A DNA stretch of 46,916 nt. Source: Nitrospiria bacterium (GTDB lineage: Bacteria > Nitrospirota > RBG-16-64-22). The notes beneath the pieces are model-generated. The model had not been told where the DNA came from, searched no databases, and worked only from the letters and a program-made list of their open reading frames with translations. The stretch is from positions 1 to 46,916 of the forward strand of contig CAKKSE010000097.1 in the NCBI GenBank assembly GCA_919903025.1, read 5' to 3'. Position numbers and translations under genes: made by a program. Shown here piece by piece: positions 4,831 through 46,916 of the stretch; the stretch's first letter is position 1; every line of letters starts with the position of its first letter.

Positions 4831-6975
4831 ATGCGATTCTGGACCGACGATCGGCGCGAAACTCTTCTCATGCGCCTGCTAGTGCTCGTTGTCATCCTGT
4901 TCTCCCTCCTCGTGTTCGATCCGTCCGAGATCCGGCGGATCCTTCCCCATCACATCGTCGCCGGGATGCTGGCCTTCGTGGCCGTCGGCGTGTACGCCCG
5001 TCTTCTCAGGGAGCGCCGCCGGACCCGGGCCGTCCTGAAGTTCGATTCCTCCCTGCGGGCCGCATCGGAGCTGGCGGATGCCACCGACAGGATTATGGCG
5101 GCCCTGGGCGCCTTGGCGGAGTTCATCGGCAAACAGAGCGGGGTCCGGTTGGTTCTCACGCGGCGCCAAGCCGGTTCGCTCGGCCTTCGCGGGTCGGCGT
5201 CGGGGGACGCCGTTTCCCTTCAGATCGCGGAACCTCCTCCATCGGGAGGATCGGACCGGTTTCGGATCGAGGAGGGGGCGGCGGCGCGGAGCGGAGACGG
5301 CGCGGAATGGATCGACGACCGCGCGGTCTTTGCCGGCCGGGTCTACGCGGACCCCGCCCGGCGCGAGGGGCTTCTCGTTGTCTGGTCCCTGGCCGGGAAC
5401 ACGCCGCAAGGAGACGAGGCTCTCCCGGTCGAGGGCGCCGCCGGGAAGATCGTCTCGTTCCTCGGTCGGGAGTGGAGGCAGGCGGGGTATCAGGAAAAGG
5501 TCGAAGAAGCGCGAAGAGCGATCGAGCGGGCCGAGAACGCCCGCCGGGAGGCGGAGCGGAAAGCGGTCCTCCAAGAGGAAGAAGCGGAGCAGGCCGCCGA
5601 GCGGGCCGAAGAGACGCGGGCCAAGATCGCCGAGGCGGAGCGTTTGTTCGAGGAGGCCCGCAGGGAATACGAGCGGCAGTCGTCACGCTCGACCGAGGAG
5701 CTGATGGGGGCGTACGCCCGGCTCGACGAGCGGGAGGAAGAGCTCAAGAGGCGGCTGTCGGAGAGGATCGGCGGCATCGAGATGCAGTCCCTGGCCGAGG
5801 TGGTCCTCGACGAAACGTTCTTTCTGGAGATGACGCTGAACGCGGGGCTCGGCGAGACGCAGGCGGAGATCGGATCGATCATGCTGTTGGACCCCACGAC
5901 GGACGAGCTGGAGATCGTCGTCTCGCGGGGACTCTCGGACGAGGTGGTCAAGACGACGAGGATCGCGGTGGGGGAAGCCATCGCCGGCTACGTGGCCCAG
6001 CAGAAGAAGCCGCTGTTGGTCGCGGATATCGAGAGCGAGCCGCGCTTCCAGGGAGTCTCTCAGGTGAGAAACCGCCGGACGTCGTTCATCTGCGTTCCGA
6101 TTGTCGGGCGGGACCGCGTTCTGGGCGTGATGAACGCGAACAACAAGGCCGGCGGGGGAGCGTTTACGAACCGGGATCTGGCCGTGATGGAATGGCTGGC
6201 CGGCCGGGCGGCCCATTTCCTCGAGAGCCTTTCCGTCCTCGGCGCTTCATCCAGCGGGGCAATCTCCATCAAGAACTACATGGAGCAGACCCTGACGGGG
6301 AGGTTCGTTCGCGAGTTGCCCCTCCTGGAGCCGCAGGGGACGGTGCAGAGGGTGACGGCCGTCTTCGTCCAGATCAAGGGTGTGCCGCGGATGGTGTCCT
6401 GGCTCCCGATCGGGGCGGTCATCGAGACGCTGAACCGGATCTACAAACTGCTCTCCGGAATCGTCACGAAGTTCAGAGGTACGGTCGACCGGTACGGCGG
6501 AGACTCCATGGTGGCCGTCTTCGGTCTTCCGTTCGCGGGCGCCGAAGACGCGGAGCGGGCGGTTCGCTCGGCCATCGAGATCGTCGTCCGGTTCCTGAAA
6601 CAGCGGAATCCCGACGAGATCCGGATGGATCTCGGGATCGCCGTCGGGATCTCCACGGGAGACGTGGTCGTGGGCGTCGTGGGCACGCCGGGAAACAGGC
6701 GGCACACGGTTGTCGGCGACGTGGTCGAGATCGGCCGGCGCCTTCAGATGACGGCCCAGACGGGCCAGGTCCTGATCGATCATGCGACTTTCGAGAAACT
6801 GGAAGGGCGCCTCGAGGCCGAGCCGTCCGGGACCGTCTCCCTTCCGAACAACCCGGCCGTTCCGATCTACGGCGTGCGGCGCTTCAAGAAGACAACGCCC
6901 GCGGGCGTCCCGGCGCCAAAGGATGTTGCGGTTCCTTCCATGAAGATCGACGGCCCCGGGCATCCGGCCCTCTAA
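4831..6975 (+). CDS. Membrane GAF protein with degenerate class III cyclase domain
   Basis: This 714-residue protein has two N-terminal hydrophobic segments (about residues 13-30 and 38-56), a charged coiled coil (about 215-320), a GAF domain (about 330-475, with IGSIMLLDPTTDELEIVVSRG and FICVPIVGRDRVLGVMNANNK) and a C-terminal class III adenylate/guanylate cyclase fold (about 505-690). Key cyclase positions are altered. The first metal Asp is Gln514 (FVQIKG instead of F-DI-G), the base-selecting Lys position is Arg554 (DRYGGD), and the transition-state Asn is Glu633 (VVEIGRRLQ instead of VN-A-RL). The second metal Asp (Asp558) and the Arg (Arg637) remain. I infer that it is a non-catalytic or altered nucleotide sensor rather than a working cyclase. 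The start is uncertain because no Shine-Dalgarno precedes 4831; ATG at 4870 is an alternative. Confidence 0.85.
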   Translation: MRFWTDDRRETLLMRLLVLVVILFSLLVFDPSEIRRILPHHIVAGMLAFVAVGVYARLLRERRRTRAVLKFDSSLRAASELADATDRIMAALGALAEFIGKQSGVRLVLTRRQAGSLGLRGSASGDAVSLQIAEPPPSGGSDRFRIEEGAAARSGDGAEWIDDRAVFAGRVYADPARREGLLVVWSLAGNTPQGDEALPVEGAAGKIVSFLGREWRQAGYQEKVEEARRAIERAENARREAERKAVLQEEEAEQAAERAEETRAKIAEAERLFEEARREYERQSSRSTEELMGAYARLDEREEELKRRLSERIGGIEMQSLAEVVLDETFFLEMTLNAGLGETQAEIGSIMLLDPTTDELEIVVSRGLSDEVVKTTRIAVGEAIAGYVAQQKKPLLVADIESEPRFQGVSQVRNRRTSFICVPIVGRDRVLGVMNANNKAGGGAFTNRDLAVMEWLAGRAAHFLESLSVLGASSSGAISIKNYMEQTLTGRFVRELPLLEPQGTVQRVTAVFVQIKGVPRMVSWLPIGAVIETLNRIYKLLSGIVTKFRGTVDRYGGDSMVAVFGLPFAGAEDAERAVRSAIEIVVRFLKQRNPDEIRMDLGIAVGISTGDVVVGVVGTPGNRRHTVVGDVVEIGRRLQMTAQTGQVLIDHATFEKLEGRLEAEPSGTVSLPNNPAVPIYGVRRFKKTTPAGVPAPKDVAVPSMKIDGPGHPAL

Positions 6976-6981
6976 CTGGAT

Positions 6982-7128
6982 GTTGAAAAAGTCCATCCAT
7001 GGCTTTTTCAACCACGACCTGGACGAAGTGAATTCGTCCAGATCTCACAAATTGCTCGACTTTTCAAGTCTCGCAATTTGGCAATCCATCCATGGATTGC
7101 ACTCGCAGGGTGTTTTTCAACACCCTGC
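6982..7128. repeat. Array of five consecutive hairpins
   Basis: Five separate inverted repeats lie almost end to end. 6982-7012 is gttgaaaaag/ctttttcaac with an extra cca/tgg. 7019-7041 is ctggacgaa/ttcgtccag. 7048-7080 is caaattgc/gcaatttg with inner gactt/aagtc. 7081-7100 is gcaatcca/tggattgc around a tetraloop. 7105-7128 is gcagggtgtt/aacaccctgc. All stems are perfect or have one symmetric internal loop. The whole unit sits between the cyclase-like gene stop and the yebC promoter. The A+T-rich content differs from the flanks, which suggests a mobile repeat element or a structured RNA or transcription barrier. Confidence 0.85.
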
Positions 7129-7145
7129 TAAAGACGGAAATCGCA

Positions 7146-7174
7146 TTGACAGGCCAGGGGCGATGTGTTAAATA
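7146..7174 (+). promoter_or_regulatory. yebC-ruvCA promoter
   Basis: TTGACA (7146-7151) and TAAATA (7169-7174) are separated by 17 nt. The predicted start is near 7181, giving a leader of about 60 nt to the yebC ATG. Confidence 0.6.
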
Positions 7175-7243
7175 ACCTTATCTTTCAATGGTTTCTGGCG
7201 TGTATTCACAGCGGCGCGCAAAGATAGCGGAGGGTCTGCGGCA

Positions 7244-7996
7244 ATGTCGGGGCATTCAAAGTGGGCGACGACGAAGCACAAGAAGGCCGTCGTGGACGGC
7301 CGTCGCGGGAAGCTCTTCACGAAGTTGATCAAGGAGATCACCATCGCCGCGCGGATGGGCGGGGGGGATCCCGAAGGAAATCCCCGGCTGAGGCTCGCCA
7401 TCGCCAAGGCGAAGGAGGCGAACATGCCTCATGACAACATGAAGCGGGCGATTCAGAAGGGGACGGGAGATCTCCCCGGGGAATCGTACGAGGAGATCGT
7501 GTACGAAGGGTACGGGCCGGGAGGCGTCGCCGTCCTGATGGAGATCACGACCGACAACAAGAACCGGACGGCCTCCGATATCCGGCACATCTTCTCGAAG
7601 GCCGGAGGGAACTTGGGAGAGGCCGGGTGCGTGGCCTGGATGTTCAGCAAGAAAGGGTACCTCCTGGTGTCGAAGGGAGGCGTGGACGAGGAGTCGCTGA
7701 TGGCCGCGGCGCTGGAAAGCGGGGCGGAAGACATCCGGTCGGACGATCCGGAGAGTTACGAGGTCCTCACGGCGCCGGCCGACTTCGAGCGGGTGAGGGC
7801 CGCGTTGTCGGCGGCCAAGCTTCCCGTCACGACGGCCGAGGTCACCATGATTCCGAGTTCGACCGTGGCGATCGAGGGGAAGGACGCCGAGGCGATGATC
7901 CGCCTCATGGACGCCCTCGACGATCACGATGACGTCAACCACGTCTACGCGAACTTCGACGTTCCGCAGGACGTTCTCCAAAAGGTGGAAGCCTAA
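7244..7996 (+). CDS. yebC: YebC/TACO1-family protein
   Basis: A 250-residue member of the YebC/PmpR/TACO1 family, of which some members regulate transcription and others assist translation of difficult sequences. It has the family N-terminus [32 protein letters not shown], the [20 protein letters not shown] segment and the [10 protein letters not shown] motif. Length is normal. The ATG has a strong ribosome site (ggaggg) about 10 nt upstream and a promoter at 7146-7174. It leads a yebC-ruvC-ruvA set, an arrangement common in bacteria, which is why the family was long suspected to serve Holliday-junction gene expression. Confidence 0.97.
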
Positions 7997-8018
7997 ACAA
8001 GTCGCGGCGGAGGAACGA

Positions 8019-8636
8019 ATGCGGATCCTTGGGATCGATCCCGGGACGCGGACGGCCGGCTACGGCGTGATCGATGGCGACGGCTACCGCGTTCGATTCA
8101 TCGCGGCCGGCGTCATCCGTCCCGCCGCCCGGGAAACGCTCCCGCGGCGGCTCCTCCATCTGGCGGACTGCGTCGACGAGATGATTCTCGCGCACCGGCC
8201 CGACGTCGTCGTGGTCGAGAACCTCTTTTTTTCCCGAAACGTCCGTTCCGCCCTGGCCCTGGGGCAGGCCCAGGCGGCCGTCTTTCTCTCGGCGGCCAGG
8301 CGGGACATTCCTCTTTTCGAGTATCCGCCGGCCACGGTCAAGAAGGCCGTCGTGGGGACCGGGAACGCCGAGAAGGCCCAAGTGCGGCGGATGGTCCGCG
8401 TTCTGCTGAACCTGGACCACGATCTCGATCCGATGGACATCTCGGACGCGCTCGCCGTCGCGATCTGCCACTTGCACCAGCATCGCCATCTGTCGGCGGT
8501 CAGCGGTCTGCCGGGGGTCAGCGGTCTGTCGGCGGCGGTTGCCCGGTCCGTCCGTTCGTCCCATCCGGCATCCGTCGTCCCGGCCGGGGGTGCGCCCTCT
8601 TCGGCCGGTCTTCTTCGCCGAGGCGGGGGCCGGTGA
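8019..8636 (+). CDS. ruvC: Holliday junction resolvase RuvC
   Basis: RuvC cuts Holliday junctions after RuvAB branch migration. The active-site acidic residues are in ILGIDPGT, VVVENLFFSRN and the C-terminal MDISDALAVAICH. The start is ATG 8019 (MRILGIDPG), preceded by ggagga; the longer ORF in the track (from 7929) overlaps yebC. The protein is 205 residues, longer than the usual 160-175. After the normal end at AICHLH there is a Ser/Ala/Gly/Arg-rich tail encoded by copies of ggtcagcggtctg (8498-8510 and 8516-8528), which look like spacer repeat words captured into the gene. The stop overlaps the ruvA start (GTGA). Confidence 0.96.
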   Translation: MRILGIDPGTRTAGYGVIDGDGYRVRFIAAGVIRPAARETLPRRLLHLADCVDEMILAHRPDVVVVENLFFSRNVRSALALGQAQAAVFLSAARRDIPLFEYPPATVKKAVVGTGNAEKAQVRRMVRVLLNLDHDLDPMDISDALAVAICHLHQHRHLSAVSGLPGVSGLSAAVARSVRSSHPASVVPAGGAPSSAGLLRRGGGR

Positions 8637-22256: not shown

Positions 22257-22300
22257 CTTTCCAATTTCCAATTTCAAATTTTCAATTTTCAATTTTCAAT
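22257..22300. repeat. attgaaaattg-word repeat (reverse sense)
   Basis: Three copies of tcaattttcaattttcaat plus ccaatttccaatttcaaat between dapL and the FAH-family gene. Confidence 0.7.
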
Positions 22301-34116: not shown

Positions 34117-34129
34117 CGGAAGGCGAGAT

Positions 34130-34178
34130 TTGAAATTGAAAATTGGAAATTGGAAATTGGAAATTGGAAATCGAAAAG
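34130..34178. repeat. attgaaaattgg-word repeat
   Basis: Tandem attgaaaattggaaattgg words between the Rrf2 gene and the IscS-like gene; they create the spurious extended ORF starts 34143/34150. Confidence 0.75.
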
Positions 34179-42366: not shown

Positions 42367-42377
42367 GAAGAACAAGA

Positions 42378-42480
42378 AATTGAAAATTGGAAATTGAAAA
42401 TTGAAAATTGAAAATTGGAAAGTTGCGGAAGACCTCCTTCGTTTTCCAATTTCCAGTTTACAATTTGCAATTTACAATTT
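42378..42480. repeat. attgaaaattgg-word repeats between the moeA genes
   Basis: A forward run (attgaaaattggaaattg) and a reverse run (ccaatttccagtttacaatt, aatttacaattt) face each other across about 25 nt, forming a large imperfect inverted repeat. Confidence 0.75.
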
Positions 42481-42511
42481 GTATTCGGGCTTTGTCCCTT
42501 AGGGTGGAGCG

Positions 42512-46449: not shown

Positions 46450-46830
46450 TTTGACTCCTTTTTGAGTTGCGTGGATAGATCCCGCGCCCGCGGAATTGGG
46501 GAGCCGGCTCCCGGCGAGGAGGAAACGGCATGGCACAACCCTGCTGGCGCAACCGCATCGTCGCCAACCGGTTGCTGAATTTTCAGACGGGACTGAAATC
46601 AGGATGGGTTAGAGAGCGATGAACGAAAGGCAGGACCGGACCTTGCGGCCGGTCGGCTGTCTGCTCCGTACTGGAGCGAGGCGTACACTATCATACTCAT
46701 CCGAGGATTGCGAGCGAATTCTTTCGGGACGCTCGCGGATGCCGCCCATCGATTGTTCAGCGGGGGGCGTATGGCCATATGTCCCTACGACCACGATTCG
46801 CTATTGCCTCACGTTCAGGAACAGCAGGTG
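46450..46830. other. Gene-free stretch
   Basis: No convincing gene, RNA or terminator. The track ORFs here (46609-46794 minus, 46619-46912 plus) have no family features, and the plus ORF runs into the repeats at the right edge. Confidence 0.6.
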
Positions 46831-46904
46831 GGCAGGCACGGTGTGCTGCCCTACGGGGCTATTCGTAGCAGGGGGGCAGGCACGGTGTGCTGCCCTACGG
46901 GGCT
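46831..46904. repeat. Two 30-bp repeats at 44-bp period, continuing off the edge
   Basis: The unit ggcaggcacggtgtgctgcc + ctacggggct occurs at 46831-46860 and 46875-46904, separated by attcgtagcagggg. Each unit contains an imperfect palindrome (gggcaggcac/gtgctgccc). The following ttttcgtagggcg suggests another unit beyond the window. Confidence 0.8.
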
Positions 46905-46916
46905 TTTCGTAGGGCG

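Follow-up and report, generated by a model that had tools for sequence, protein, structure and literature searches.

Five different hairpins packed into 147 bp were predicted at positions 6982-7128 of a 46,916-nt stretch of a Nitrospiria bacterium genome (contig CAKKSE010000097.1, forward strand; here called the window). The question was whether such a row is a structured RNA, a multi-hairpin mobile repeat, or a transcription/topology barrier, and what keeps its stems paired.

Hairpins at the Window Locus

Five non-overlapping hairpins were located in this region, and their stem sequences differ among themselves. The segment 6970-7140 has an MFE of -73.9 kcal/mol, compared with -36.5 +/- 3.4 kcal/mol for dinucleotide shuffles (z = -10.9), and none of the 200 shuffles folded equally well. 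All hairpins are given on the forward strand: hairpin 1 at 6982-7012 with the conserved loop region TCCATCCATGG, hairpin 2 at 7016-7044, hairpin 3 at 7048-7080, hairpin 4 at 7081-7100 with the inner sequences CATCCATG/CATCCCTG retained across classes, and hairpin 5 at 7105-7128, the 3' arm of which is the right terminal repeat. The stems had all been described as perfect. Not all of them are: hairpin 3 in the window copy consists of 8 bp, a 2x2 internal mismatch (TC/TC), and 5 bp, and the outer part of hairpin 2 contains an internal mismatch as well. The gttgaaaaa/tttttcaac cores common to hairpins 1 and 5 are real and represent the terminal inverted repeats of a transposable element. Pairing of one terminal repeat with the other as the main fold was rejected, as it is worse than the local hairpins and column 5/169 pairs almost never.

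The unit is slightly longer than the 147 bp originally claimed. The element occupies 6976-7127 (152 bp, forward strand) and is flanked by CTAA at 6972-6975 and 7128-7131. Its G+C content of 46% is lower than that of the surroundings, as predicted. Its upstream neighbor is a cyclase-like gene (4831-6975) and its downstream neighbor yebC (7244-7996), both named by reading the translations. The stop codon of the cyclase-like gene, TAA (6973-6975), sits within the left duplication. A 63-aa ORF at 6980-7171 overlaps the element and is unlikely to be coding, because indels differ between copies. The element ends shortly 5' of the sequence TTGACA-17-TTAAAT (7146-7174) upstream of yebC, which is retained at the orthologous locus L033 and reads TTGACA-17-CTAAAT at L032.

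Other repeats were also seen in the window. At 46823-46912, where the window ends, two 44-bp units in tandem (AGCAGGGGGGCAGGCACGGTGTGCTGCCCTACGGGGCTATTCGT) resemble the flank of one copy of the element (L007), and 7-bp AT-rich tandem arrays (e.g., ATTGGAA, AAATTGA) are present at 22258-22300, 34128-34171, and 42376-42481 in a window that is otherwise GC-rich.

Copies and Covariation

The element is clearly not a single genomic occurrence. A 161-bp query gave 14 BLAST matches in its own genome, about eight of them full length, and 24 and 21 matches in two same-genus genomes, with at least 20 copies in each; elsewhere, one match was found in genome G009 and shorter ones in G013. A covariance model was built from 42 distinct copies; the window copy matches it over positions 1-151 of 151 with 175.9 bits, and at least 16, 26, and 26 matches to it were obtained in the three same-genus genomes, respectively. 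Matches were present in six of 118 genomes (G000, G001, G002, G009, G011, and G013), with one each in G009 and G011. Other same-genus classes (L091, L095, and L107) were matched at full length and in the same orientation (E 1e-24 to 1e-28), and so were elements of G013, which belongs to another family (E as low as 1.7e-21). The only full-length copy in G009 (L079, contig C326), also a genome of a different family with 6% reported contamination, may have come by horizontal transfer or with a contaminating contig. No match to the element was found in phage and plasmid records.

Two alignments were evaluated over 54 scored pairs: A1, with 42 distinct copies, and A2, a wider combined alignment across classes. 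In A1, 94.2% of cells pair and 21 of the 54 pairs are changed on both sides, compared with a mean of 11.7 in shuffles and at most 7 in slid controls. In A2, 92.3% of cells pair and 39 of 54 pairs are doubly changed; its covariation score of 0.429 compares with 0.150 for shuffled and at most 0.105 for slid alignments. Because A2 was fitted to the structure of the model, its counts are tilted toward that structure, and related copies are not independent. Distant members score roughly 30-45 bits higher with structure than under a sequence-only model, the effective sequence number differing between the two models. The covariation that the original prediction proposed to look for is clearly present.

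The changes are spread along the row. In hairpin 1, 98.5% of cells are paired, and compensatory changes occur at columns 8/38 and 17/30. All 11 pairs of hairpin 2 are changed on both sides in A2, and at its pair 47/67 UA, AU, CG, GC, and UG all occur in A1; about 18 copies retain a mismatch at one same pair of this hairpin. Both-side changes were found in 11 of 13 pairs of hairpin 3 (A2). The inner sequences of hairpin 1 (TCCATCCATGG) and hairpin 4 (CATCCCTG) are recognizable across classes, whereas hairpins 2-5 have largely exchanged their stems. With both-side changes in 39 of 54 pairs, the five-hairpin architecture thus persists, in one and the same order in several same-genus classes and in a different family, although nearly all of the stem sequence has been replaced. 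Such a conserved interior, common to elements of different families, is unusual. No published description of five-hairpin elements was found in the open literature searched, beyond which further papers may exist.

Element Ends, Target Duplications, and Empty Sites

The 44 near-full copies can be aligned end to end, with ends CAGGATGTTGAAAAAG and, inverted, CAGGGTGTTGAAAAAC. In the window copy, the left terminal inverted repeat CTGGATGTTGAAAAAG lies at 6976-6991 on the forward strand, and the right one, read on the reverse strand as CAGGGTGTTGAAAAAC, at 7112-7127. The repeats are imperfect and about 16 bp long. The left end of the window copy starts with CTGG and has T for A at the second base when compared with the left end of the family and of the insertion sequences described below.

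CTAN stands directly outside both ends in the aligned copies. The same 4-mer stands on the left and on the right in 14 of the 44 copies, where 5.5 would be expected (p about 5e-5), and the fourth target base agrees in 25 (12.4 expected, p about 5e-5). As this base is often T too, the motif is looser than YTAR, the target motif of E. coli IS5 (PMC10359306). Target duplications are imperfect in many copies, as expected of old copies; the window copy has CTAA on both sides.

Empty sites were identified in relatives. For GGCCCT-CTAA-[element]-CTAA-AGACGG in the window, the orthologous sequence at L033 reads GGCCCT-TTGA-AGACGG, and the orthologous site at L032 is also without the element. Conversely, L032 has a copy at the yebC end, just before ruvC, that is missing from the window and from L033. 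Reciprocal empty sites occur in two further pairs (L051/L065 and L053/L060), and copies common by descent were found at L014/L024 and L049/L050, so insertions are both older and recent. In the two reciprocal pairs, independent insertions of different subfamilies lie some tens of bases apart in orthologous intergenic regions, which suggests insertion hot spots.

The target tetranucleotide falls on a stop codon both in the window (CTC TAA) and at L032 (GCA TAG), and the gene ends are preserved. A TA-containing target in GC-rich DNA would steer insertions to stop codons. Of the three options originally proposed, the mobile repeat is strongly supported, by the number of copies and their covariation as well as by terminal repeats, duplicated targets, and empty sites.

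Relationship to IS5-Family Insertion Sequences

Of 296 Nitrospirota genomes sampled, 89 contain the end motif CTAKCAGGVTGYTGAAAAA and none contains a reversed control pattern. Among transposase loci of genomes with the motif, intact insertion sequences of 1.32-1.38 kb with CAGGATGTTGAAAAAG/CAGGGTGTTGAAAAAC-type ends are present in the Nitrospiraceae genomes G250, G246, G219, and G213, where their targets are CTAG, CTAA, or TTAG. Three of them (L245, L247, and L249) have CAGGATGTTGAAAAAG as the left and CAGGGTGTTGAAAAAC as the right end, which is the same asymmetry as in the window family. The right end of the window copy is identical to theirs in 16 of 16 bases; at the left end, the window copy agrees with the autonomous insertion sequence in 15 of 16 bases and the family consensus in 16 of 16.

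Transposases of the intact insertion sequences were assigned to NCBIfam NF033581 IS5_4 (1.3e-77 and 1.5e-72, over the cut-off), with that of L246 just below the cut-off, and carry Pfam domains PF05598 and PF01609. Their plasmid relatives are annotated as IS5 family, among them ISAzs10 with about 52% identity. Other candidates were rejected: the IS1182 family, as the transposases are under its cut-off; a DDE_Tnp_1 gene in G002 (L080), which is without the ends; and a 3.6-kb inverted pair on contig C45 of G001, which represents two separate MITEs around host genes and not an autonomous element. Viral contigs were also scanned for the end motif, and there was no autonomous element among the matches examined; so short a motif gives many chance matches.

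As intact insertion sequences with the same ends and with CTAG/CTAA targets exist in the phylum, the element is best read as a MITE mobilized in trans by an IS5-type transposase, a reading drawn from sequence comparison. It has what is expected of an IS5-family MITE: it is short, non-coding, and present in many intergenic copies with empty sites in relatives, it has a 4-bp YTAR/CTAN-like target duplication, and its ends are common to an intact IS5-family element with a partner transposase, here from other Nitrospirota genomes and not from its own genus. It differs from IS5-family MITEs in its interior of five covarying hairpins common to families. What speaks against the reading is that the three same-genus genomes, the assemblies of which are fragmented and could miss one, yielded no intact transposase of the IS5 family. 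In the window's own genome, only a broken piece of an IS5-like transposase, with two stops in frame and without element ends, was found (L257, G000:C158:10564-10998). A same-genus helper transposase was either lost or falls in an assembly gap.

Other interiors occur between the same ends. Elements of 140-236 bp at L091 (734-873), L092 (460-601), and L093 (506-741) have IS5-type ends and an interior of long CCCTCTCCC/GGGAGAGGG inverted repeats, and fold as essentially one long hairpin. A 44-bp element at L094 (415-458) consists of the two ends as a single hairpin with partly matching target flanks (CGAT/CTAT), and is possibly a minimal element. Many elements of 132 and about 208 bp (range 132-209 bp) with the same ends were found in Nitrospiraceae (L258-L277), and for the most part fold into one long hairpin each; the 208-bp form resembles a 132-bp form extended by 76 bp. 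Genome G118 contains 138-bp elements with the same ends and their own hairpins. Several interiors have thus been successful, and the five hairpins are one of them.

Maintenance of the Hairpins

At paired positions of subfamily 1, rare variant cells (found in at most two copies) include 21 fully compensated doubles and 29 broken singles. Template-switching correction of quasipalindromes, by which imperfect inverted repeats are made perfect through paired changes, is established in E. coli (PMC7202029); it is a mutational process and not an element family, and its action on this element is putative. The fast compensation seen in individual copies would match such correction, and selection on active source elements could contribute. 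The hairpins may even be mutational products only, symmetrized by template switching with no selection on shape, an account that concerns their persistence and competes with selection, not with the MITE. The share of compensated doubles, large for copies probably without individual function, argues for it, as does the equal frequency of G.T and A.C mismatches in A2 (27 and 26 cells; 16 and 15 types). It leaves unexplained why there are five separate hairpins, their order and approximate spacing, the inner sequences of hairpins 1 and 4 shared across classes and families, and the mismatch kept at the same hairpin 2 pair in about 18 copies. We regard correction alone as possible but on balance somewhat unlikely.

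A structured RNA (small RNA or mRNA element) spread by transposition and selected as a transcript would agree with the strong family-wide covariation of five helices and with the very stable fold, and transcripts through the element would certainly fold. RNA selection on one strand would give more G.U than A.C, and there is no such excess in A2, which argues against it; in A1, there are 61 G.T and 36 A.C cells, but 18 and 16 types. Insertions between tandem genes show no orientation bias, with eight sense and eight antisense by crude, rough GC3-based ORF calls. A search of 6000-8400 against Rfam gave no match at E <= 1, and neither a promoter-like site nor an intrinsic-terminator-like one (GC-rich stem followed by a T run) was found in 6900-7260. 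This option of the original prediction is thus not supported, and we hold it to be improbable. The structure is most likely kept at the DNA level, by selection for hairpins or by palindrome correction. The DNA-level reading follows from the lack of strand bias, which is negative evidence, and copies transcribed equally in both directions could produce the same symmetry of mismatches and orientation.

A barrier of bidirectional insulating hairpins selected at gene ends is consistent with two copies placed exactly at a gene end by empty-site comparison (the window and the yebC-ruvC copy at L032), and with many other copies that are intergenic by a rough ORF call. Location at gene ends would, on the other hand, be explained by the TA-containing target, expected to be enriched at stop codons in GC-rich DNA. 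The same lack of a terminator-like site in 6900-7260 also counts against a barrier, and since close relatives differ in copies at the same site, no site needs one. Selection as a barrier is therefore very improbable. REPINs and REP elements are likewise small intergenic mobile hairpins with compensatory changes (PMC3116915), and Y1_Tnp genes occur in all three same-genus genomes. Still, it is hardly credible that the element is REPIN-like and moved by a REP-associated Y1 (HUH) transposase: it has DDE-type ends, a 4-bp target duplication that fits DDE and not HUH transposition, and five hairpins where a REPIN has one, and its ends are absent from nine of nine Y1 loci and present on intact IS5 elements.

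Some further known systems were compared. ERIC-like repeats are comparable intergenic repeats. Integron attC sites (RYYYAAC/GTTRRRY core sites with a cassette) were considered because the element ends read GTT...AAC; by inspection, GTTGAAA does not fit GTTRRRY. The enterobacterial RU-1, RU-2, and RU-3 are similar as MITE-like intergenic repeats of about 100-170 bp (PMC2759123). RU and ERIC repeats belong to different taxa, and the likeness is one of description.

Discussion

Taken as a whole, the feature is very probably a non-autonomous, IS5-mobilized MITE with a five-hairpin scaffold that is most likely kept at the DNA level. An IS5-family DDE transposase would act in trans on the imperfect terminal repeats of about 16 bp, move the 152-bp unit, and duplicate a 4-bp CTAN target. 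In the window, the target was the CTAA at the upstream gene end, and the reading frame and the TAA stop stayed intact, a soft landing just upstream of yebC. The interior is a conserved row of five hairpins and would not be a remnant of a transposase gene. Its palindromes may extrude as hairpins on single-stranded or supercoiled DNA, where they could help the element to move or to be tolerated, or else template switching may repeatedly correct one arm from the other. Any function of the row is putative. Tentatively, it may be a functional DNA device, such as a scaffold presenting the ends to the transposase or a replication shield, with its shape selected in DNA, present in IS5-type elements of different lineages, and with stems that drift through arm-to-arm correction; we consider this rather unlikely.

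The usual view of MITEs is that they are passive products of deletion whose interiors are arbitrary. In this element, by contrast, a five-hairpin array is conserved between the ends; across families of one phylum, paired changes have replaced its stems, and there are signs that the structure is kept in DNA and not in RNA. Also documented are a phylum-wide IS5-type end motif and an insertion at a stop codon that leaves the reading frame intact. Two questions become testable. One is whether selection, for transposition or for host tolerance, acts on the secondary structure of mobile elements; the other is how far template-switching correction imitates the covariation that is usually taken as proof of functional RNA. 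The latter directly urges caution where bacterial RNAs are discovered by covariation. If the row does act as a DNA device, the conserved trait of this bacterial mobile element would be the architecture of its DNA.
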